NCBI GenBank assembly: GCA_020356065.1
Contig: CP070632.1
Span: 1,487,944-1,531,058 of the forward strand
Source of the DNA: Nitrospiraceae bacterium
GTDB lineage: Bacteria; Nitrospirota; Thermodesulfovibrionia; UBA6902
DNA length: 43,115 bases
Direction: 5' to 3'
The notes under the pieces were generated by a model. The model made no database searches. It saw only the letters and a program-made list of their open reading frames with translations, and had not been told where the DNA came from. Positions 3,546 through 35,476 of the stretch are shown here, one piece after another. The position numbers and the translations under genes are program-made. Every line of letters begins with the position of its first letter. Position 1 is the stretch's first letter.

Positions 3546-3574
3546 TTGACAAATTATAAATATGGGATTACAAT
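3546..3574 (+). promoter_or_regulatory. Strong sigma-70-type promoter giving a leaderless DUF6502 mRNA
   Basis: TTGACA (3546-3551), exactly 17 bases, TACAAT (3569-3574). Transcription start would fall at 3581-3582, which is the A of ATG 3582. No ribosome-binding site precedes that ATG, so the mRNA is predicted to be leaderless. The alternative is translation from TTG 3546, which has GAGG upstream but would make the TTGACA box coding sequence. Confidence 0.7.
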
Positions 3575-3581
3575 CCCAATT

Positions 3582-4382
3582 ATGAGCAGCAATGTCAATA
3601 AGGTCATATCTTCAGCAATAACCAGGCTTCTGAGACCCCTCGTGAGTATATTGTTAAATAATGGCATTCCTTATGGAACATTCTGTGAACTGGCAAAATG
3701 GGTATATGTAGATACAGCATCAAAGGAACTTGCCATTCCGGGGAGGAAACAGACGACTTCAAGAATTGCTGTTGTTACCGGCCTGTCCCGAAAAGAGGTC
3801 AAGAGATTACGGGAACTTTCAGAAATAGATGATCTCGGGGCTGCCGACCGTTACAATCGTGCTATTCGGGTTATTAATGGATGGCGCAGGGATTCCAATT
3901 TTATTGATGGCAGAGGATTACCCAAAGCGCTTTATTTCGAGGGGGACTTGAGCTTTTCATCGCTCGTAAAAAAATACAGCGGAGATATTCCGCCCAGGGC
4001 AGTGCTGGATGAGATGCTCAGATCAGGTGTTGTTAAGCAGGACAATGACAGAATCCGCCTTTTAACAGAAGGTTATATTCTGCAAAAAGGGGAAGCAGAG
4101 AAGCTTCATATTTTCGGTCTGGATTCCAGTGAATTCATAGCAACAGTGCGTCATAATCTGACCAGCAGTCCCTCCAACTCATTTTTACAGAGAAAAGTTT
4201 CATATGACAATATCCCGGACGGAGCGATCCCTGAATTAAGGAACATGCTTTCTGAAAAAGGAGCAGTATTTCTTGAATCCCTGGACAGAATAATTTCTAA
4301 ATATGACAGAGACGTCAATCCATCCATCAGAGGAGAGGGACGGAAAAAGGCAGGACTGGGAATCTTTTATTTCGAAGAATAA
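3582..4382 (+). CDS. DUF6502 family protein
   Basis: From ATG 3582 the product is 266 residues. The opening SSAITRLLRPLVSILLNNG, the GIPYGTFCELAKWVYVD segment and a helix-turn-helix-like stretch (TSRIAVVTGLSRKEVKRL, about residues 60-77) match my memory of the DUF6502 family, small cytosolic proteins with a winged-helix flavour. I infer a DNA-binding or regulatory role; the family function is not established as far as I know. It is followed after 28 bases by a DUF5666 lipoprotein on the same strand. A TTG start at 3546 with GAGG upstream is possible but would overlap the promoter at 3546-3574. Confidence 0.75.
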   Translation: MSSNVNKVISSAITRLLRPLVSILLNNGIPYGTFCELAKWVYVDTASKELAIPGRKQTTSRIAVVTGLSRKEVKRLRELSEIDDLGAADRYNRAIRVINGWRRDSNFIDGRGLPKALYFEGDLSFSSLVKKYSGDIPPRAVLDEMLRSGVVKQDNDRIRLLTEGYILQKGEAEKLHIFGLDSSEFIATVRHNLTSSPSNSFLQRKVSYDNIPDGAIPELRNMLSEKGAVFLESLDRIISKYDRDVNPSIRGEGRKKAGLGIFYFEE

Positions 4383-4410
4383 CATATCAATATACACGGA
4401 GGGACATACC

Positions 4411-5829
4411 ATGGCATCACAAACAGAAGGACGGTTTAAGAGTAAATGTATGAGAACTGCTATTGTCCTTGTTATCGTATTGTCACTTGCATCATCTTGC
4501 GGCGAAAGTCTGGTAACCCTTCTTTCCGGAGGAGGGATAAGCGGGACTGGAAGATTTCTGGGCATCATCGCCGGTTTTGGCAGTATCTTTGTAAACGGAG
4601 TTGAGATAGAGACCACCAGTGAAACAAATATCTTTATTGATGATGTCAGTGCAAATGAAAATGCTTTGAGAGTTGGGATGAAAGTTGAGGTCATTGCCAC
4701 TGATAATGTCGCTTCCACAGTCACCTATAATTCAGAGATCAGAGGACCGATCGAAAGTGGAAGTCTAAATATCATTAACAATACCTTTTCTGTTTTGGGT
4801 CAGACAGTAATGGCAGACGGAACAACTGTATATGACGGATTAAGTGGGTTTGCACAACTGCAGGAAAATTATATTGTTGAGGTCAGTGGTTTTGCAGACG
4901 CTACCGGCACTATTCTGGCTACCTTTGTTGAGCTTGAAGACTCAGGACTTCAGGAGTTTAAGCTCAGGGGTAATGTATCAAATCATAACGCAACTGTAAA
5001 AAGATTCTTCATCAATAACATTACAGTTGACTACAATACACTCCAAAACCCCCCGTCTATTGCCAATGGTTCTTCGGTAGAAGTAAAGGGTACACTGGAT
5101 AATAATATTTTTATTGCATCAGAGATTGAAATTGAGGATTTTTCTCTTGCATCAGGAGAAAAAGTGGAACTTGAAGGAATAATTACGGCAAAAACGTCCC
5201 AAACTGATTTTTCGGTCGGCCCACAGCAGGTGCAGATTAATGCTGATACTGTTTTTGAACATGGAACTGCAGCGGGCATCGAGACCGGCATGCGAATTGA
5301 AGTTAAAGGTTCAGTAAACAGCAACAGCATTCTCGTAGCAGAAAGAGTTGAGTTCCGGTTCGTGGAATCAAAGAGTATAGAAATTGAAGGCATAGTTGAG
5401 ACAATTGATACGGACAAATCAACAGTAACGGTAATGGGAATCACTATCCACGTTGATACCAATACGGGACTCATAGATGAGGTGTTTGAATTAAGGCCCT
5501 TTACCCTGTCAAATATCCAGCCGGGAGACTTTCTCGAAATTAGAGGATTTGTTGATAATGAAGGTAACATTGTTGCCATTATACTTGAAAGAGATGAGAT
5601 GCCGGAGCAGGACGAGTTTGAGTTCAGGGGGCCTGTGGACGCTATAACGCCCAATACTGCTATCGAGATACTGGGAGTTTGGGTGGATCCTGGCGCAGCC
5701 CTTGACAACAGCAACGACGCTGCTGCCTTTTTTAATGAAATAAACGTGGGAGATATCGTAAAGGTAAAGGGAGGTTTTTCTGGCAGAATTTTTACTGCAA
5801 ACGAGCTTGAAATAGTGAGTCTGAATTAA
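4411..5829 (+). CDS. Lipoprotein with six DUF5666 repeats
   Basis: ATG 4411 has GGAGGG nine bases upstream, so I take it over an earlier in-frame start inside the previous gene. The 472-residue product has a signal peptide ending in the lipobox LASSC (Cys30). The rest is about six ~65-residue beta-rich repeats. The first opens with the diagnostic GTGRFLGIIAGFGSIFVNGVE; later ones show the recurring GxVEVKGxxxxNxxxxAxxIE pattern (e.g. GSSVEVKGTLDNNIFIASE, GDIVKVKGGFSGRIFTANE). DUF5666 domains are OB-fold-like beta units of unknown role in cell-envelope proteins. The 28-base spacing suggests co-transcription with the DUF6502 gene, so the pair may be one envelope system with its regulator. Confidence 0.8.
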   Translation: MASQTEGRFKSKCMRTAIVLVIVLSLASSCGESLVTLLSGGGISGTGRFLGIIAGFGSIFVNGVEIETTSETNIFIDDVSANENALRVGMKVEVIATDNVASTVTYNSEIRGPIESGSLNIINNTFSVLGQTVMADGTTVYDGLSGFAQLQENYIVEVSGFADATGTILATFVELEDSGLQEFKLRGNVSNHNATVKRFFINNITVDYNTLQNPPSIANGSSVEVKGTLDNNIFIASEIEIEDFSLASGEKVELEGIITAKTSQTDFSVGPQQVQINADTVFEHGTAAGIETGMRIEVKGSVNSNSILVAERVEFRFVESKSIEIEGIVETIDTDKSTVTVMGITIHVDTNTGLIDEVFELRPFTLSNIQPGDFLEIRGFVDNEGNIVAIILERDEMPEQDEFEFRGPVDAITPNTAIEILGVWVDPGAALDNSNDAAAFFNEINVGDIVKVKGGFSGRIFTANELEIVSLN

Positions 5830-6184: not shown

Positions 6185-9100
6185 GTGAAGTTATTAATAA
6201 TAAAGAAGTTGATGGTGTTGATGTCGCTTTGTCTGGTATCCCTTTTCACAGTCAATATGGGCAGTTCTTATGCTCAATGGCTGTCTCCGGGCAAACTGAC
6301 CAAATCTCATAAAGAGATTGAAGGATTGGCGAATTGCACAAAGTGCCACCAGCTTGGAAAAGGCATTTTGAACTCATTATGTATGTCATGCCATGAAAAG
6401 CTTATCGCCCAGATAAAAAATAATAAGGGCTTTCACTCGAGGCTTAAAGATCCATGCATTTCGTGTCACACAGACCATAAAGGTGAAGACTATAACATTA
6501 CCAGCCTTGACAAGGATAAATTTGATCATGACAAAACAGGGTACGTACTGAAGGCCAAACACAAAGTGTTATGTGAAAAATGTCATCGGGAGGAAAAGAC
6601 GTATCTTGGACTGACGCAGGAATGCACAGGTTGCCATACTGACCTGCATAAAAAGCAACTTGCCAGAGACTGTCTGCAATGTCATACCTTTCAGGATTGG
6701 AATAAGACGAACTTTGATCACGCTAAGTCAATATACAGGCTTACCGGGAAACATACTGATGTTCAATGTCAAAAATGTCATTCAGGTTCTTCGATCAACA
6801 GCGATGGAAAGCCCGGTGATGTTAAAGCGGCATATACGTCCCTTCAGTACAAACCTCTTTCTCATGACAAATGCAATGATTGTCACTTTGATATTCATAA
6901 AGGTGAGCTTAAAAAGCAGACCTGCACAGAATGTCACTCAACTGAAGGATGGGATAAGAAAACATTTGAGCACAACAATCCTCACTTAACCGATTTCAGT
7001 CTGGAGGGCAGGCACGAAAAGGTTGCCTGCGAACTCTGTCATATAGAGGAAACCTTCAAATACGAACAGAATGGCAAAACAGTTGAACGGGTCGCGAGGA
7101 GACTTACATCAATTAAGCATGCAGGATGCAATGACTGTCATTATGATGTGCACACCGAGCAGTTCAGGGACCAGCGTTGTGACAGCTGCCATACCGTTGA
7201 GAACGAGTGGAAAAAAACTGTATTCACCCATGATTCAAAGGATTATAAAGGGTTTAAACTTGTAGGGAAACATATTGATGTTGAATGCAAAAAGTGTCAT
7301 CAGCAGAATGAAATAAAGTATACGGAATTTCACAAGAAGAAAAAGACAACTCTGGGTACATTCAAACCTGTTAAGTCAGAGAAGTGCAATGACTGTCATT
7401 ATGATGTGCATAAGGAGCAGTTCAGGGGCCAGCGTTGTGACAGCTGCCATACCGTTGAGAATGAGTGGGAAAAAACTGTATTCAGACATGAATCGAAGGA
7501 ATATAAAGGATATAAACTGGAAGGCAAACACAGTGATGTTGAGTGCAAGAAGTGTCACAAACAGGATACGGTCAGGTATGTAGAATTTGGACAGACCAAA
7601 GAGTCCCTGATCGGGCAGTTCAAACCAACGGAACATGACACCTGCCTGGTGTGCCATGAGGACAAGCATAAAGGGCAGTATCAGGAAAAGTGCAGCCACT
7701 GCCATTCACCTGTAAGCTGGGATCCGAAGAATTACCTTCATGATCCCCTTTCCCTCGAGTTAAAAGGTGCCCACAAAACACTTGCGTGTATTGAGTGTCA
7801 CATGGGAATGAAGGACTTTAAGGGGCTTGACTCTGAATGCATAACGTGTCATCAGAAGCAGGACCCGCACCTGAACCAGTTCGGCCAGTTCTGCGATGAC
7901 TGCCACAGGCAACAGGCATGGATCCCGACTGACTTTAAACATACCAGTGTAGGGTTCAGGCTTGCCGGCGGTCACAGGGAGGCTGACTGTAAGGACTGCC
8001 ATATCAACAGGGACTACAGAAATACATCTACAGATTGTTTCGAATGTCATATTGAGGATTACCAGACAGCTCCTAATCATCTGACGAGACAGTATCCGCA
8101 GGAATGTGATAAATGTCATAACCCTTCGTCAGTATGGGAGAATGTGAGTTATGACCATACAGCATTTACATTCAGAGGAGCCCATAATGCCATACGAAAT
8201 GGCTGTGCAACGTGTCATGATGCCCCGGTGCAGATGCCCATGGGAACTACTGATGATGACTGTTACAACTGTCATTCTTCAACAGGCGTGGCTGTCACCA
8301 CATATGAAGGGACTCTTAATCCTTCACATACATTGTTCAACTTCAGCTACACATGCACGGATTGTCACACTGTTGATTCCTGGATGGGTGCGAATTATAC
8401 GCATCAGAATTTCCAGCAGAACGGGCTACATGCATCACTGGACTGCACGGCATGTCATGCAAGCGGGTATCCCGGCAACTATGCAGGGGCTGCCCAGAAT
8501 GACTGTTATACCTGTCACCAAAATGATTATAACGGTGCACTAAATCATATAAACTTTAACTTTCCGCAGGACTGTACCGTATGCCATTCAGGTAACAGCT
8601 GGTCAGGAGCGAGTTACAGCCATCAGAGTTTTCAATTAAGCGGAGTGCATACCATACTGGATTGCACGGCATGTCATGCAAGCGGGTATCCCGGAGAGTA
8701 TGCAGGCACAGCAGACGATGATTGCTATGCCTGTCATTCAAGTGATTATCAAAACGAATCTGAACATGCTGAATCAGGTTATCCCCAGGACTGTACCACA
8801 TGTCATTCAGTAAACAGCTGGGAAGGAGCAGCCTTCCAGCATGTGAATTTTAAGACAAAAGGAGTACATACCACTCTTAACTGTACAGCCTGTCATACCA
8901 CTGGTTATCCCGGGGAACTGGCTGGTACAACAGACGATGAATGCCATACATGCCACGTGAGTGATTATGAAGGAGCTCCTAACCATGCATTATTTAATTA
9001 TCCTCATGACTGTTCTGCCTGTCATCTAGATAATAGCTGGACAGGGGCCAGTTTTACTCATCAAAGCTTAAACTTAAACAGCCTGCACTCGGCACTGGAT

Positions 9101-9469
9101 TGTACAGCATGCCATGCCAGCGGCTATCCGGGCAATTACGCAGGGGCATCACAGAATGACTGCTTTACCTGTCATCAGAGTGATTACAACGGAGCTCCTA
9201 ATCATACTGCATTCAGTTATCCCCAGGACTGTACGACCTGCCACTCGGGCAACAGCTGGCAGGGAGCAACGTTCCAGCACCAGAGCTTTCAGCTTAGGGG
9301 TATACACGCAACATTAAGCTGCAATGCATGTCACAGTAGCGGCTATCCCGGCAATTATGCCGGAACTTCAGATGATGAATGTTTTACATGTCATGAAAGT
9401 GATTACAACAGGGAGCACAATAACCAACCGCATGACTGCACACAATGTCACGACCTGTGGGGCTGGTAA
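6185..9469 (+). CDS. Giant secreted multiheme c-type cytochrome with 42 CXXCH motifs
   Basis: GTG start at 6185 with GAGAGG upstream. The 1,094-residue precursor has a clear signal peptide (residues 1-30, cleavage after SSYA). I count 42 CXXCH heme-attachment motifs, one per ~25 residues, plus many extra histidines that could be distal ligands. The N-terminal half is built of ~86-residue modules (CNDCHYDVH, CDSCHTVENEW, VECKKCH); the C-terminal half of 73-residue three-heme modules (CTACHASGYPG, CYTCH, PQDCTVCH, NSWSGASYSH). The composition is cytochrome c3/c7-like, with no catalytic signature such as those of nitrite, hydroxylamine or octaheme reductases. I infer an electron-transfer wire in the periplasm or outside the cell. 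It heads a same-strand unit with a barrel protein (7-base gap) and a quinol-type cytochrome b. Confidence 0.92.
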   Translation: MKLLIIKKLMVLMSLCLVSLFTVNMGSSYAQWLSPGKLTKSHKEIEGLANCTKCHQLGKGILNSLCMSCHEKLIAQIKNNKGFHSRLKDPCISCHTDHKGEDYNITSLDKDKFDHDKTGYVLKAKHKVLCEKCHREEKTYLGLTQECTGCHTDLHKKQLARDCLQCHTFQDWNKTNFDHAKSIYRLTGKHTDVQCQKCHSGSSINSDGKPGDVKAAYTSLQYKPLSHDKCNDCHFDIHKGELKKQTCTECHSTEGWDKKTFEHNNPHLTDFSLEGRHEKVACELCHIEETFKYEQNGKTVERVARRLTSIKHAGCNDCHYDVHTEQFRDQRCDSCHTVENEWKKTVFTHDSKDYKGFKLVGKHIDVECKKCHQQNEIKYTEFHKKKKTTLGTFKPVKSEKCNDCHYDVHKEQFRGQRCDSCHTVENEWEKTVFRHESKEYKGYKLEGKHSDVECKKCHKQDTVRYVEFGQTKESLIGQFKPTEHDTCLVCHEDKHKGQYQEKCSHCHSPVSWDPKNYLHDPLSLELKGAHKTLACIECHMGMKDFKGLDSECITCHQKQDPHLNQFGQFCDDCHRQQAWIPTDFKHTSVGFRLAGGHREADCKDCHINRDYRNTSTDCFECHIEDYQTAPNHLTRQYPQECDKCHNPSSVWENVSYDHTAFTFRGAHNAIRNGCATCHDAPVQMPMGTTDDDCYNCHSSTGVAVTTYEGTLNPSHTLFNFSYTCTDCHTVDSWMGANYTHQNFQQNGLHASLDCTACHASGYPGNYAGAAQNDCYTCHQNDYNGALNHINFNFPQDCTVCHSGNSWSGASYSHQSFQLSGVHTILDCTACHASGYPGEYAGTADDDCYACHSSDYQNESEHAESGYPQDCTTCHSVNSWEGAAFQHVNFKTKGVHTTLNCTACHTTGYPGELAGTTDDECHTCHVSDYEGAPNHALFNYPHDCSACHLDNSWTGASFTHQSLNLNSLHSALDCTACHASGYPGNYAGASQNDCFTCHQSDYNGAPNHTAFSYPQDCTTCHSGNSWQGATFQHQSFQLRGIHATLSCNACHSSGYPGNYAGTSDDECFTCHESDYNREHNNQPHDCTQCHDLWGW
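6872..7642 (+). repeat. Tandem ~258-bp heme modules inside the cytochrome gene
   Basis: Module starts (first TGC of CNDCH) fall at 6872, 7127, 7385, with a degenerate one at 7643. The spacings are 255, 258 and 258 bases. The copies at 7127 and 7385 are nearly identical for their first ~85 bases (CNDCHYDVH through VENEW), which points to recent duplication; the one at 6872 is clearly older. Confidence 0.85.
8444..9469 (+). repeat. Tandem 219-bp heme modules inside the cytochrome gene
   Basis: Module starts fall at 8444, 8663, 8882, 9101 and 9320, exactly 219 bases (73 codons, three CXXCH) apart; the fifth is cut short by the stop codon. The amino-acid pattern is CTACHASGYPGNYAG, then DCYTCH, then PQDCTTCHSGNSW, then HQSFQLxGxH. 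Uninterrupted periodicity implies growth by whole-module duplication. Confidence 0.9.
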
Positions 9470-9476
9470 TCAAGGA

Positions 9477-11312
9477 ATGATAGAGCAATCAATAAGAATA
9501 ATGAATATGCTGAACTTAACGGTCAAACATAAAGCAATGTCTTGCCTGTTACATTCAGGAAGAATTCCAGGTTATGTGCTTATGATTGTCTTCCTTATAT
9601 TTATATTGTTACCTGTAGACCTTCACGCAAAAGACACAGAGATCTATACCGTTCAGACAGGGAGCTTTACAGTAGACACTATAGCAGAGGAACATTTCAA
9701 TTCATTATTAAAAGCGTTTGATAAAAGTGAAAATAATCACCTGAGAATTGAGAAAGTCGGAGATTTTTATGCTGTACGGGTAGGTAAATTCAGGGACCAT
9801 GCCGCTGCAAGTAAATTTCTCCAGTCAATGTCTGCTCAAGTTAAGGAAGCTATTATTTTAAAGGCCTATTTTAATGAGGAAAATTTCATCAAGTCTTCTT
9901 CAAAGGCAGTGAAAGCAACACTGGAAGAAAACAAAGTGAAGCCAACGTTCTCAACGGATATGTTAAATGCAACCATAACTGAAATCAGTCAGGACAAAAA
10001 ACCTGCCGCGAAAACTGAACTCATTGCAGGCACAGATGAAAACCTGAAAGCAGATGATACCAACAATACATCTGAATCTACGGTTCAGCCCCTCAGGAAC
10101 AGGACAGAGAAAAAACAGAAAAAATATGAAGACATTCACGGAAGGGTATATATCAGCGATTACTATTCAAATGACAGCAACAACTTTGATTTTCATGTGC
10201 TGTCTTCAAGGTTAAAGGTATACCAGAGGGAAAATGATAACAGCCGGTATTACTTTAAATTTGATGGCAGGGCAAGAATGAAAGTTTCTGACAATGATGT
10301 GCATAACGATATACCTGAGTTTAAATTATATGAAATATGGATTGGTTATAAATTCCCGGTACAGAGGCTTGACGTCATTACAGGGAGACAGCATATCCTT
10401 GAGATGTATAACACAAGTGTTGATGGAATTAATACAAAGTTCAGGTTCAGAGACGACATCGGGATAGGCATATTTGCAGGTCTCGCACCCGATAAATATG
10501 ATTATTCCTTTAATTCCAAGTTTAAAACTGCAGGCGTTTACAGCTTTCTTGACAGGGACAGGTATAAATTAAAGTTAGGATATGAAAAGCTGTTTTACGA
10601 TGGGAAAACGGACAGGGAATATTTATCATTCAAGCTGTATTCAGATTTTAATAAAAAAATGTGGTTCAACCTGTTATCTTCCGCCAGTATCAACCAGATT
10701 ATAAACAGTATAGATGTGGATAATATGAGTACAAATCTGCTCTACAAATTCTCCAGGGATCTTCGTGTCAATTTCTTTTTTAATTATTACAGGGCCATAC
10801 GATACTTTGAATCTTCAAAGAAGTTTATTTCCCACAACGGCATCCCGGACGATTATTACCTTGATACAAACCCGCAATCAAGACTAGGGGTCAGAATTAA
10901 TTACAGGCTACTGAAAAAACTGACCGTATACACATCGGCGGCATATCAGCACAGAGATATAGATGATGAAAGTGCTACCCGGTTTACCGGAGGATTCAGA
11001 GCATATGATCTCCGTCGGTTTAATCTTTCAGGCCGCTATACACGTATAAACAACTTTACATCCAAGAGTAATGAATTTAATCTGGAAGTCTCCAGGTTCT
11101 TCCTCGACAAGTTTGATGTATCTGTATACGCTAGCCATGAACAGGAAGAGCTTGACATAGAAAACGGGTTTACAGCCGGACTGCTGACCTATGGTGCCTC
11201 TTTGTACTGGACAATTAACAAACACTATTTTATTTCAATGTTTCTTGAGCGATATGATGAAGATGACTATGACAACACGTCGATGTTCACCCAGGGCGGT
11301 TACAGGTTCTGA
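9477..11312 (+). CDS. SPOR-domain plus outer-membrane beta-barrel protein
   Basis: I use ATG 9477, the first start after the cytochrome stop; ATG 9501, 9507 and 9537 are also possible and none has a convincing ribosome site, so translational coupling is likely. From 9477 the protein is 611 residues. A hydrophobic signal segment (about 31-51) ends VDLHA. Residues ~56-135 resemble a SPOR domain (EIYTVQTGSFTVD, DFYAVRVGKFRDHAAASKF), which binds denuded peptidoglycan. After a low-complexity linker, residues ~225-611 are alternating amphipathic strands with many Tyr/Phe and Arg/Lys, ending in GGYRF; the terminal aromatic is typical of BAM-inserted outer-membrane proteins. Its place between a 42-heme cytochrome and a cytochrome b suggests the porin of an electron conduit. 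No CXXCH is present. Confidence 0.75.
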   Translation: MIEQSIRIMNMLNLTVKHKAMSCLLHSGRIPGYVLMIVFLIFILLPVDLHAKDTEIYTVQTGSFTVDTIAEEHFNSLLKAFDKSENNHLRIEKVGDFYAVRVGKFRDHAAASKFLQSMSAQVKEAIILKAYFNEENFIKSSSKAVKATLEENKVKPTFSTDMLNATITEISQDKKPAAKTELIAGTDENLKADDTNNTSESTVQPLRNRTEKKQKKYEDIHGRVYISDYYSNDSNNFDFHVLSSRLKVYQRENDNSRYYFKFDGRARMKVSDNDVHNDIPEFKLYEIWIGYKFPVQRLDVITGRQHILEMYNTSVDGINTKFRFRDDIGIGIFAGLAPDKYDYSFNSKFKTAGVYSFLDRDRYKLKLGYEKLFYDGKTDREYLSFKLYSDFNKKMWFNLLSSASINQIINSIDVDNMSTNLLYKFSRDLRVNFFFNYYRAIRYFESSKKFISHNGIPDDYYLDTNPQSRLGVRINYRLLKKLTVYTSAAYQHRDIDDESATRFTGGFRAYDLRRFNLSGRYTRINNFTSKSNEFNLEVSRFFLDKFDVSVYASHEQEELDIENGFTAGLLTYGASLYWTINKHYFISMFLERYDEDDYDNTSMFTQGGYRF

Positions 11313-11413: not shown

Positions 11414-12280
11414 ATGGGATATCAAAAACACAAAAATTTTATGCTGAGGTGGCTCACAAAAGAATTAACGCCACAAAGTCACCGGATAAGAAAAAGTATA
11501 AAAAAACCGGATGATAACAAAACCGTACATAAAAAACATTCTCAGTCAAACAAAATCCTCAGATTCAGAAAATCAGAACGACATCTGCACTGGGCCATAG
11601 CAATTCCCTTTATGATTTGCTACATGACAGCCCTTATCCTTGTATTTATTTACAATCCCAATCCGCTGAAAGCTCATCGTGAGATCTTCTCGCTTATTCA
11701 CAGAGTTTCGGGCGTATGCCTAATCATACTGCCTTTACTTGCCATTATCAAAAGCAGAAAAGACATCAGGATGTATTATTACAATATTAAGCAGGCGTGG
11801 GTATGGACATTTGAAGATGTCAAATGGCTTGTCATGATGGGTCTGGCATCTATCAGTAAGAGATTTAAGCTGCCGGAACAGGGGAAGTTCAATGCGGCAG
11901 AAAAAATCAACTTCATGATGTTAATGGCCACGTATCCCCTCTATGTTGTTACCGGAATGTTTATATGGCTGACTAACGGAGCCTTACTGTCCTGGATCAT
12001 CCATTTTGGCATGGCTCTGCTTGCAACCCCTTTATTAATTGGGCACAAGTTTATGGCCACCATTAATCCTGATACCAGGATAGGACTCTCAGGCATGATC
12101 AATGGTTATGTGGACCGTCACTGGGCAAAACATCATTATACGAAATGGTACAGGGAGCATTTTGAAGAGAGCCCGACACCTCACCATCCTCAGCCTCAGC
12201 ATGCAATGACTGATGATAACCTCGTTCCGGTTCCCGTAGAAACTCATGCAAAGACTCCACAGCCTGTTGAAGCAGCTTAG
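11414..12280 (+). CDS. FdnI-like di-heme cytochrome b membrane subunit
   Basis: ATG 11414 has AGAGGAGG seven bases upstream. The 288-residue protein has a ~50-residue basic cytosolic N-terminus, four membrane segments (about 60-80, 93-113, 166-187, 190-213) and a Pro/His-rich tail. Four histidines sit where the cytochrome b561 / formate dehydrogenase gamma family carries its heme ligands: H59 (RHLHW), H96 (SLIHRVSG), H197 and H211. The 14-residue spacing of the last two equals that of FdnI (H155/H169). Such subunits exchange electrons between quinones and periplasmic partners. With no dehydrogenase subunit nearby, I infer it links menaquinol to the multiheme cytochrome encoded upstream. Gap to the barrel gene is 101 bases, with the hairpin at 11317-11340. 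Confidence 0.85.
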   Translation: MGYQKHKNFMLRWLTKELTPQSHRIRKSIKKPDDNKTVHKKHSQSNKILRFRKSERHLHWAIAIPFMICYMTALILVFIYNPNPLKAHREIFSLIHRVSGVCLIILPLLAIIKSRKDIRMYYYNIKQAWVWTFEDVKWLVMMGLASISKRFKLPEQGKFNAAEKINFMMLMATYPLYVVTGMFIWLTNGALLSWIIHFGMALLATPLLIGHKFMATINPDTRIGLSGMINGYVDRHWAKHHYTKWYREHFEESPTPHHPQPQHAMTDDNLVPVPVETHAKTPQPVEAA

Positions 12281-32362: not shown

Positions 32363-35300
32363 TCACTCCAGCTTGCAGACTGCACCATCCATGTATTTCA
32401 TGATCTCATCATAATCCTTTTTTATTTTTTCGTACATCAGGGCGTTTGCAATTGCTGTTGCACACTGCTCAGCCAATGATTCAACAAATTGTATTTCCTG
32501 GTCTGAAAATCTTCTCGGCTCCCCGGTATGGAGTCTCAATATACCCAGCACCTTATTCCGCGCGATAACAGGGACCGTAAGCATGCTTTTTATCCCCTCT
32601 GCAGAAGCTTCCTGCCGGTATGTAACGCGTCTATCAGTTGTCACATCAAATATAGCAACAGGCCTTTCCTTCAAGGCCTCGATAACATTTTTCTCAGCAT
32701 CAATAGGTCCCCTGTTTAAATATGTATCGCTCAGACCATAGGCCGCAGCAAGCTTAAGTTTCTTTCCGGACGGATCAAGCAGTCTGATAGTAGCAGCTTT
32801 CAGATCCATGACTTCAGGGATTTTTTTCACAATTATCTGCATCACATCTGCAGGCCTGAGAGACGCACTGACAGCTTTCGTCACCTCCTCAAATACTTCC
32901 AGGTACTGTTTCTCCTTGGAGATCTGTGCTTCAAAATGCCTTGCGTTCACAATGGCAATAGCTGTCTGCTCTGCAATGGCAGACATGAACCTTGTATCTT
33001 CATCTGTGTATTTGATTGGCTTTGTAGAATAAAGCCTTAACCGGCCAATGGTCTCGGACTGAAAAGTCAACGGAACAGACATTATACTCCATATACCTTC
33101 TTCAACTGCTTCCCTATAATATTTGGATTGCCTGTCCTCGGCAATGTCATATACCGAAACAGCTGCACTTGATAAAGAGTTGGCCAGACTTGCATCGTAT
33201 GATACGGGCCCCTTGTTCGCGTACTTCTCACTCAAACCATAATATGCCACCAGCTCCAGCAGCTTTTTCTCCCTATTAATGAGACGGAGCATACTGCCTT
33301 TCAGTCCCATTACTTCAGGGATTTTTCTTACTATCAGGTTCAGGACCTCATGCATATCAAGAGAAGAGCTCACCGTCTTTGTAATATCTTCAAAGACCCT
33401 GAGATATTCCTTCTCCCTTGATATCTCCTGCTCGAAGCTCTGTGCATTCAAAATGGCAATGCCGCTCTGTTCAGCAAGGGAAGCAGTAAAATCAATCTCC
33501 TGCCGGGAAAATTCCCTGTGTTCTGCAGAAAGAAGCCGCAGGATTCCGATAAGGGTTCCCCTCGCCCTGATAGGCAGGGTGAGCATGCTCTTTATGCCCT
33601 CTTGCCGCGCCTCTTCCTTATACTGAATTCTCTCATCGGTTGTTACGTCATAAATAGCCACAGCCTTTTCCTGTAATGCCTGGATAACATTTTTTTCAGC
33701 ATCAACAGGTCCCTTTTTCAGGTATTCATCACTCAATCCATATGACGCAACAAGTTCAAGGTCCTTCCCTTCTTTATCAAGCAGTCGAACAGTAGCGGCC
33801 TTGAGATTCATCACTTCCGGCAGCTTCCTCACAATCATATCAAGAACTTCCCGGGGCTTTAGCGAAACACTGAGGGCCCGGGTGACCTCCTGAAATACTT
33901 CCAGATACTCCTTTTCCTTGGATATTTCCTTTTCAAAGTGTCGTGCATTTACTATCGCAATGGCAGCCTGTTCAGCAATGCCTTCCATGAACATAAGATC
34001 TGCCTCGCTGTATTTTTTCTGATGGGCTGTATAAAACCTCAGCATGCCGATAATATCGTTCTGGTATATCATCGGCACTGAAAGGATATTTTTTATTCCC
34101 TCCTCCATCGCCTCGGTATAGTACTTCGAGTCCTTGTGTTCGGATATATCGTACTCGGAAACAGATTTTCCGGCCCTTGCATCATCAATGCTGGCATCAA
34201 ATGCCACTGGCCCTTTATGCACATATTTCTCGCTCAGTCCATGATACGCAGCAAGCTCAAGCTGTTTCTTTTCCTTATTAAGCAGCCTGAGTGTACAACC
34301 CTTCAGTCCCATAACCTGAGCGATTTTTCTGACTATCATATTCAGCACTTCGTCAAGGTCGAGCGAGGAACTCAACGTCTTTGTTATTTCTTCAAAGACC
34401 CTCAGGTATTCCTTTTCATTTGAAACAGCCGTTTCAAAACGTCTTGCATTTACGATCGCGATCGCTCCCTGTTCAGCAATGGCCGACATGAACTTCAGAT
34501 CATCTTCAGTATAATTGACCGGCTCTGATGTATACATTCTCAGAACGCCTATGACCTCATTATCTGCACGCAGAGGAATAGAAAGAATACTTCTGATCCC
34601 TTCCTCTCTGGCTTCCTCATAATATTTCGAGTCCTCATGTTCGGTTATGTCATAGACCGAAACAGGCTCTCCTGCAAGTGCGTCATCAATACTCTTGTCA
34701 TACCCGACAGGACCTTTATTGGCATATTTTTCACTCAGGCCGTAATAGGCGGCAATCTCAAGTTGCTGGGTCTCTTTGTTGAGAAGTCTGAGCAGGCTTG
34801 CTTTCACATTCATCACTTTTACAACGTTCGTAACTATAAGATGAAGGACTTCATCAATGGAAATGCTGGCGCTTATCGCTTTGCATATGTTCTGAAAGCT
34901 CTCGAGATACACTTTTTTTTCGAATATCGTTTCAGCACAGGAAGGACACATGCCATGAGTAAAAATACCAAAGCCCTCATTTGTCAGATATGTTTCAAGC
35001 TGCTCCCAGTAGTTCTCATCGCTTCTGATTTTCTTGCACCATCCGCATATTGGTATCAGCCTTTCCTTTCTCTCTGACTTGATACGGGTTTCTATCGTCG
35101 CTGTAATATGTGATATGTCTCTGACTGCAGCAATCACGCCCGTCAATTTACCCTTCTCCATCAACGGCGAAGCGGTTTCCTCAAGCATGCGTCTGCCACT
35201 GTCATGCGCGGTCTTATAAAGCTGCTTTCTCACTACTTTTTTTTCCTGAAAACACAGAGCAACAGGATATTCAAATGTCTGAAGCACAACGCCCTTGTCA

Positions 35301-35476
35301 TCCTCATACATTATGTCATCGTGAGAACAGCCAATCATTTTATCAGCAGATAAACCGGTAATGGATTCAGCAGCCCTGTTCCAATACTGAATTTTTTTTT
35401 CCATATCAACGAGATATAAACCATCTGTCATGGATTCAAATATGTTTCGATAAGTTTTGTTAAACAGGTCAAGCAT
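32363..35476 (-). CDS. PAS plus five tandem GAF domains, no output domain
   Basis: A 1,037-residue soluble protein. Residues ~1-130 are a PAS domain (FESMTDGLYLVDMEKKIQYW, GVIAAVRDIS). Residues ~142-185 are the cysteine motif often placed after PAS domains in signalling proteins (CGWCKKIRSDENYW, HGMCPSC). Five GAF domains follow at about 195-350, 365-520, 535-690, 705-858 and 872-1025. GAFs 1, 2 and 4 share KGPVxYDxSxxDA and YDIxEhxdSKYY; GAFs 3 and 5 share KGPVDAEKNVI and YDVTTDxR, an A-A-B-A-B order. No histidine kinase, GGDEF, EAL or HTH is present, so it must signal through a partner. TATGAT (35488-35493, minus) gives a leader of about four bases. The GAF-GGDEF gene lies just upstream. 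Confidence 0.88.
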   Translation of the reverse strand: MLDLFNKTYRNIFESMTDGLYLVDMEKKIQYWNRAAESITGLSADKMIGCSHDDIMYEDDKGVVLQTFEYPVALCFQEKKVVRKQLYKTAHDSGRRMLEETASPLMEKGKLTGVIAAVRDISHITATIETRIKSERKERLIPICGWCKKIRSDENYWEQLETYLTNEGFGIFTHGMCPSCAETIFEKKVYLESFQNICKAISASISIDEVLHLIVTNVVKVMNVKASLLRLLNKETQQLEIAAYYGLSEKYANKGPVGYDKSIDDALAGEPVSVYDITEHEDSKYYEEAREEGIRSILSIPLRADNEVIGVLRMYTSEPVNYTEDDLKFMSAIAEQGAIAIVNARRFETAVSNEKEYLRVFEEITKTLSSSLDLDEVLNMIVRKIAQVMGLKGCTLRLLNKEKKQLELAAYHGLSEKYVHKGPVAFDASIDDARAGKSVSEYDISEHKDSKYYTEAMEEGIKNILSVPMIYQNDIIGMLRFYTAHQKKYSEADLMFMEGIAEQAAIAIVNARHFEKEISKEKEYLEVFQEVTRALSVSLKPREVLDMIVRKLPEVMNLKAATVRLLDKEGKDLELVASYGLSDEYLKKGPVDAEKNVIQALQEKAVAIYDVTTDERIQYKEEARQEGIKSMLTLPIRARGTLIGILRLLSAEHREFSRQEIDFTASLAEQSGIAILNAQSFEQEISREKEYLRVFEDITKTVSSSLDMHEVLNLIVRKIPEVMGLKGSMLRLINREKKLLELVAYYGLSEKYANKGPVSYDASLANSLSSAAVSVYDIAEDRQSKYYREAVEEGIWSIMSVPLTFQSETIGRLRLYSTKPIKYTDEDTRFMSAIAEQTAIAIVNARHFEAQISKEKQYLEVFEEVTKAVSASLRPADVMQIIVKKIPEVMDLKAATIRLLDPSGKKLKLAAAYGLSDTYLNRGPIDAEKNVIEALKERPVAIFDVTTDRRVTYRQEASAEGIKSMLTVPVIARNKVLGILRLHTGEPRRFSDQEIQFVESLAEQCATAIANALMYEKIKKDYDEIMKYMDGAVCKLE

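Follow-up and report, generated by a model that had tools for sequence, protein, structure and literature searches.

A 42-heme cytochrome of a Nitrospiraceae bacterium that probably unites the two cytochromes of a PCC3-like conduit in one polypeptide

Of the two ends of a giant multiheme cytochrome, which one faces into the cell and which one out? The question is raised by a 43,115-nucleotide (nt) stretch of a Nitrospiraceae bacterium genome (GenBank assembly GCA_020356065.1, contig CP070632.1, positions 1,487,944 to 1,531,058; hereafter, the window), in which a gene for a c-type cytochrome with 42 CXXCH motifs stands beside genes for an outer-membrane beta-barrel and a b561-type membrane cytochrome. 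We suggest, with a probability of about 0.6, that this protein is the cytochrome of a PCC3-like porin-cytochrome conduit and that two cytochromes encoded by adjacent genes elsewhere form one polypeptide here. "Fused" refers below to the one-gene state only and implies no direction of change, be it fusion or split. In our best reading of the sequence comparisons, the N-terminal half would correspond to the periplasmic cytochrome (gene A), and a conserved middle together with a C-terminal array would correspond to the outer cytochrome (gene B), so that a natural fusion suggests the orientation of the whole chain. Its parts are as follows, in window coordinates.

6185-9469, + strand: 42-heme c-type cytochrome gene, 1094 aa (open reading frame, 42 CXXCH motifs, Pfam Cytochrome_C7)
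6185-6277, + strand: signal peptide of about 31 amino acids (aa) ending SYA-QW (from the translation; cleavage site judged by eye)
6335-6670, + strand: head, the first five hemes, with the signature SPG.L...H just upstream, conserved as far as gene A of Bacteroidota
6671-7690, + strand: N-array, four three-heme units of 84-86 aa starting at aa 163, 247, 332, and 418
7127-7219, + strand: homogenised patch, copy 1, identical to copy 2 at 87 of 93 nt
7385-7477, + strand: homogenised patch, copy 2
7691-8353, + strand: middle, aa 503-723, three units (67, 71, and 83 aa) with nine hemes
8354-9436, + strand: C-array, five three-heme units (73, 73, 73, 73, and 69 aa) with a period of 219 bp
9437-9469, + strand: single-heme C-terminal tail, CTQCHDLWGW

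The 42 predicted hemes are thus made up of 5 in the head, 36 in the units, and 1 in the tail, with 17 in the N half (head plus N-array) and 25 on the side of the middle and C-array. A preliminary description, made from the DNA letters, had bounded the gene at 6872-9469, but its reading frame begins at 6185 with a GTG codon, and position 6872 is internal.

Correspondence of the two halves to two genes

Scanning genome contigs with the conserved middle yielded 34 loci, five of which (L051-L055) belong to the window's own family; the same kind of scan with the barrel as the query returned no relatives. Genes were assigned to type A or B by a rule on heme spacing, and A was directly followed by B in all 15 loci that hold both, every one of them from Bacteroidota by record title (L058, L059, L061-L070, L072, L073, and L075; L063 and L064 show the same pattern and may be near-duplicates). 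These pairs include Flagellimonas aequoris (NZ_QXFJ01000019.1) and metagenome-assembled genomes (MAGs). Gene A carries 20 hemes in 10 loci and 23 in the other 5, and gene B carries 12 to 88 (14 complete genes, one cut), which suggests a rule in which the putative inner part stays at 20 or 23 hemes in two-gene loci (15 to 23 in fused genes) and the outer part ranges widely. Type A genes contain the full head, aligning to 167 of 167 positions in the window family's head model, and type B genes start like the middle, whereas in the window both stand in one gene.

Pairwise BLAST comparisons, run for 4 of the 15 pairs, agree with this assignment. The N half preferred gene A each time (A/B bits of 283/152, 271/109, 254/140, and 238/124), and the C half preferred gene B each time (B/A bits of 409/170, 222/188, 298/214, and 296/209). 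A fused gene also occurs in a deltaproteobacterial MAG (L056), where a single gene with 51 hemes is followed by a homologous barrel (E = 2.5e-42), and a cut gene in L057 is of the same fused kind. Under the spacing rule, no type B gene adjoins the type A gene of L060 or L077 (L077 with a short middle-like piece downstream), L074 has type B only, L071 has type B and a cut piece, and L076 and L078-L084 are either incomplete or more distant. The Bacteroidota loci differ from the window in their partner genes as well: in L058, L062, and L070, a membrane-like protein of about 285-305 aa and an Fe-S protein lie upstream in the place of the b561 gene, and the barrel is only distantly similar to that of the window (two loci, E = 9e-13 and 5.5e-11). 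As a separate observation, L065 (5541-12167) and L067 (8153-14392), from Bacteroidetes/Saprospiraceae MAGs, contain single genes with 88 and 82 CXXCH motifs and a higher-order repeat pattern.

The composition of the window protein changes along the chain. Lysine plus arginine falls from 17.2% in the N half to 7.7% in the middle and 1.1% in the C-array, and threonine, serine, alanine, and glycine together rise from 20.6% to 25.8% and 35.8%; the N half is rich in lysine and glutamate, and the C-array is rich in those four small residues with almost no lysine or arginine. Lysine plus arginine declines in the same order in three relatives (G015, G025, and G035), although the four-residue content of G015 is highest in the middle.

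By family models, the protein belongs with Pfam Cytochrome_C7 (PF14522; 148.4 bits, cut-off 24.8), comes just under the cut-off of TIGR04257, the c(7)-type triheme nanowire domain (35.3 bits, cut-off 40), and is under that of TIGR03508, the DmsE/MtrA decaheme family (72 bits, cut-off 192.2). A sequence search of the PDB gave a single weak match, to a cytochrome c3 (E = 0.0055). There are 25.3 residues per heme and, outside the CXXCH motifs, 51 histidines and only 9 methionines. The translation has no internal stop, and no lipobox or membrane anchor was seen in it. A ribosome-binding-like GAGAGG lies about 10 nt 5' of the GTG codon; a terminator scan found none, and promoter-like sites were not above shuffles.

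Partner genes and the proposed sidedness of the chain

Two genes downstream of the cytochrome are central to its interpretation.

9501-11312, + strand: outer-membrane beta-barrel gene, 603 aa (open reading frame; conserved beside the cytochrome in relatives)
9642-9857, + strand: SPOR domain, within an N-terminal extension that precedes the barrel (3e-5, 24.7 bits, cut-off 21)
10137-11309, + strand: barrel domain, aa 213-603, 22 predicted strands (fold model, structure search)
11414-12280, + strand: cytochrome b561/formate dehydrogenase gamma-like membrane protein, 288 aa (PF01292, Ni_hydr_CYTB, 56.7 bits, cut-off 30.1)

From aa 211 onwards, block pLDDT of the barrel model is generally 70-92, with lower values in some loops, and its 22 strands span aa 213-602; the SPOR-bearing extension is missing from the nine aligned homologues. 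VIA-align placed the model close to solved large barrels (Z of 17 to 21.5), many of them TonB-dependent receptors, and Foldseek gave ushers and general porins as top matches; MtrB was in neither list, a missing structural match that does not exclude MtrB. A Pfam scan of three barrels up to E = 1 gave only weak Porin_4 matches and one YdjM match (0.34), with no match to the MtrB family. The b561-type protein scored 80.6 bits against TIGR01583, under the cut-off of 115.85, and has one HX13H motif at aa 197 and another in its tail at aa 249 but no WX3HX13H. A broken copy of the b561 gene lies elsewhere in the window genome (contig positions 1775062-1775499; L097, 7048-7500), with 86% DNA identity over 362 nt and internal stops. 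It is near Fe-S/NADH dehydrogenase-like genes, and the cytochrome of G005 (L033) is near similar genes, so the cluster may have moved.

We examined 37 family genomes, 14 of which match the cytochrome at E = 1e-20; the head was found in 12, the barrel in 10, and the b561 gene in 11. Two genomes (G009 and G010) have the head, N-array, and b561 gene while the barrel and the middle are missing, and a third (G031) has the middle (10 hemes) and the barrel while the head and the b561 gene are missing. This distribution argues for an inner pair, the N half with b561, and an outer pair, the middle and C-array with the barrel. Further, the barrel follows the middle/C-array end in all 10 genomes in which that end was recovered, G031 included.

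These patterns bear on two other placements of the protein. It could be a soluble periplasmic electron store or wire in its entirety, like GSU1996 and GSU2210 of Geobacter, with the barrel as an ordinary neighbour. Its signal peptide, the lack of a visible membrane anchor, and its three-heme c7-like modules (with the near-threshold nanowire-domain score) would fit such a role, and 12- and 27-heme periplasmic monomers have been described; however, the barrel follows the outer end in 10 of 10 cases, in G031 with the middle alone, and the C-array composition agrees with that reported for extracellular PCC3 cytochromes by He et al. (PMC5566968). We consider this placement unlikely. Still less probable is a protein that is wholly extracellular or surface bound, with other, small cytochromes crossing the periplasm. 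In PCC3, gene B alone is regarded as extracellular, and 42 hemes would exceed the need of a periplasm, but the N half matches gene A, is rich in lysine and glutamate, and accompanies b561 without any barrel in G009 and G010.

Returning to a fused conduit cytochrome, we hypothesize the following path. Electrons would pass from the quinol pool to the b561-type membrane cytochrome and from there to the N half, which would span the periplasm; they would then enter the fixed nine-heme middle inside the 22-strand barrel and leave through the C-array outside the cell, or the path may run in reverse for electron uptake. The middle is the best candidate for the part within the barrel because its length is nearly fixed, it is highly conserved, and G031 retains it together with only the barrel. 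By the scale of the ten-heme MtrA, about 100 Å as cited by He et al. (PMC5566968), 17 to 23 hemes would extend 170 to 230 Å, about the width of a periplasm, and 42 would extend far past it. A more specific version, to which we give somewhat less than even odds, is that one polypeptide wire leads from the membrane cytochrome on the quinol side across the periplasm and through the barrel to the outside, with an inner part of roughly periplasmic width and an outer part adjustable by module recombination, so that a lineage could tune its outside reach with the transmembrane part untouched. If the chain does cross the outer membrane, the barrel must thread or enclose a heme-loaded polypeptide, which would make the assembly of the conduit testable.

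Several observations weigh against this interpretation. The halves also give strong cross-hits to each other's counterparts, all modules being related, and when CXXCH is masked, the match between N- and C-units is reduced to the W/H/L.G.H core (probability 35, E = 4e-4). Window C-array units form no single clade in a unit tree, although that tree is rough, with few columns and bootstrap support that has not settled. The fold of the full-length cytochrome is unusable (pLDDT 40), so no heme geometry or barrel insertion can be taken from it, and its hints of beta hairpins within linkers of the N-units are disregarded. The b561-type protein differs from the inner-membrane protein described for PCC3, and head and b561 coincide imperfectly: G014 and G025 have the head without b561 at E = 1e-40, and G034 has b561 without the head. 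As to the context of these exceptions, contig ends truncate the locus in G025 (head only) and in G034 (barrel and b561 only), and in G014 both head and b561 are divergent, with b561 found only at a weaker score (33% identity).

Repeat periods, unit number, and age of the arrays

The heme chain consists of repeated modules, as the preliminary description had it, and two periods do coexist in the gene. CXXCH codons at 6872, 7127, 7385, and 7643 are spaced by 255, 258, and 258 bp, and those at 8354, 8573, 8792, 9011, and 9230 by four exact steps of 219 bp, followed by one at 9437 (207 bp). In the lag autocorrelation, the N part has its highest value at 258 (0.487; runner-up, 0.313), and the C part has its highest at 219 (0.623; runner-up, 0.324). 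A repeat search recovered one 258-bp pair, at 7127 and 7385 (82% over 219 nt), and five copies spaced by 219 bp (60-74% identical to the reference copy); the best 90-nt identity was 0.933, compared with a maximum of 0.533 over 200 codon shuffles. Tandem Repeats Finder reported nothing, presumably because the copies are too diverged.

Cutting the protein at every C..CH followed by W gave 13 starts, and the profiles of the N- and C-units obtained in this way align in register (probability 96.5, E = 8.8e-10), sharing the order heme, W, F.H, L.G.H, heme, third heme. The two periods therefore reflect linker length around one module rather than two kinds of module. Judged by this alignment, both arrays are tandem copies of a single three-heme module, about 86 and 73 aa long, respectively. 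The proposal that the chain grew by two separate module duplications is hence not borne out, given the common register and the match of the halves to two separate genes elsewhere.

The preliminary description had suggested that copy number may vary between strains; the differences in unit number seen here are between related species. In the eight genomes in which the part before the fixed middle is whole, it holds 17 hemes in the window genome and its genus-mate G005; 23 in G017, G025, G026, G035, and G036; and 15 in G015, the last differing from G017 within one genus. The length of the C-array units depends on the lineage, being 73 aa in the window, 70 aa in G005, and 68 aa in G015 and G017, with a composite of 84 plus 73 aa in G025, G026, and G035. 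By comparison, the middle has a near-constant length across relatives and resembles the start of gene B of Bacteroidota. In the tree of 112 units, middle units cluster by position, whereas repeats group by lineage for G005 (100/95), G015 plus G017 (99/97), and G025 plus G026 plus G035 (100/99). Such changes in unit number may arise by unequal recombination, while gene conversion may keep neighbouring units alike.

The preliminary description had warned that short-read assemblies may collapse units, and assemblies of relatives do break inside this gene, a caution for short-read work on genes of this kind. Among 10 genomes with the long type, only the window genome and G015 have it whole; G035 shows a frame change within it, and in the other seven (G005, G017, G025, G026, G032, G034, and G036) a contig end or N gap interrupts it. 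These breaks, together with a 56-nt exact repeat and frame change in G035, might raise the concern that the unit number in the window is itself an assembly artefact. We give this hardly any credence: the longest exact direct repeat in the window gene is only 33 nt (G015 reaches 122 nt and G026 reaches 132 nt), which makes a collapse improbable, the frame is free of stops, and the genome is in one contig. Two side observations concern the relatives. In G035 (L036, 12380-12519), the exact repeat has a 76-nt lag, which is not divisible by three, at the point where the cytochrome changes frame, either by assembly error or by a real frameshift. In G015 (L039, 9369-12296), an in-frame contraction of the N-array at aa 253 leaves CSKCKCH, a CX4CH motif, which may be real or a short-read join.

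The 7127 and 7385 copies had been described as almost identical for about 85 bases, and only 6 differences occur in the first 85 nt. Identity declines along the 258-bp unit, with 94% over the first 93 nt, 81% over the following 81 nt, and 50% over the last 84 nt. A recent tandem duplication, as had been proposed, would by itself account for the similar patch but not for what is seen in G005, a genome in which the orthologous middle units share just 57-60% DNA identity with those of the window genome. Both units are present in G005, and their 93-nt patches are 94% alike within the window genome and 98% within G005 but 76-77% alike between the genomes in all four comparisons. The linkers of these units are 50% and 49% alike within the two genomes and 36-55% between them. 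Both units are therefore older than the divergence of the two species, with the patch homogenised afterwards in either genome; recent duplication alone is thus an improbable explanation. The C-array is old as well, since its units are 59-69% alike in DNA and its fourfold sites are largely randomised (agreement at 6 of 18 sites in one unit pair and at 3 of 14 in another). A second case is found in G026, where units 269 and 439 have cores that match completely (120/120), compared with 108/117 and 110/120 to their G025 orthologues. These patterns point to gene conversion acting on heme modules, which would be the simplest account of a homogenised patch in old units.

Known systems and other observations

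PCC3 comprises a porin, a periplasmic cytochrome, a repeat-bearing extracellular cytochrome of as many as 85 hemes, and an inner-membrane protein (PMC5566968), with 21, 24, or 27 periplasmic and 10 to 35 extracellular hemes reported in Gallionellaceae (PMC10734462) and 24 hemes with 14 or 12 in Sideroxydans CL21 (PMC12442390). Heme-number variation and repeats are, as these accounts describe them, already known in kind. The window locus resembles PCC3 in having a porin beside very-many-heme cytochromes, an arrangement kept in its relatives; in its internal repeats and residue-to-heme ratio (25.3, versus 22-39 in PCC3); in an outer part rich in threonine, serine, alanine, and glycine with a variable heme number; and in periplasmic heme counts that rise in steps of three (21, 24, and 27 in PCC3; 20 and 23 in gene A). 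It differs in that A-like and B-like parts share one open reading frame instead of two cytochrome genes, in having a b561/FdhI-like protein instead of the described five-helix inner-membrane protein (SGXXG, two WX3HX13H), and in the 22 predicted strands of its barrel, versus up to 42 transmembrane regions in PCC3 porins. Because the first two of these differences concern features that define PCC3, we regard the locus as a variant rather than a member; the cytochrome would be surface exposed in part.

The linear heme chain in one polypeptide also recalls GSU1996 and GSU2210 (PMC10138318), the former built of three-heme domains. No porin partner is described for them in the consulted portions of that paper, and each GSU1996 domain has one His-Met heme, unlike the methionine-poor, histidine-rich window protein. 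Likeness to MtrCAB/MtoAB extends to a cytochrome in or at an outer-membrane barrel; the MtrA family model scores under its cut-off, and no MtrB family match came up to E = 1. In the consulted portions of the open-access literature, we found no fused PCC3-type cytochrome and no gene conversion between multiheme cytochrome modules.

Three further features were observed in passing. Just upstream of the cytochrome (window 3546-5829) lie DUF6502 and DUF5666 genes; of 18 fetched stretches, those of G015 and G017 alone contain homologues, there too upstream of the cytochrome. The window genome contains a second cytochrome cluster (about 1128210-1131495; L098, 6211-8202 and 8237-9496) encoding 26 and 16 hemes with an alternating 23/25-residue spacing, followed by two more multiheme genes. 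Finally, a 1,037-aa protein encoded at window 32363-35476 (- strand) has several long similar repeats that, by eye, look like tandem GAF domains, a possible tandem expansion.

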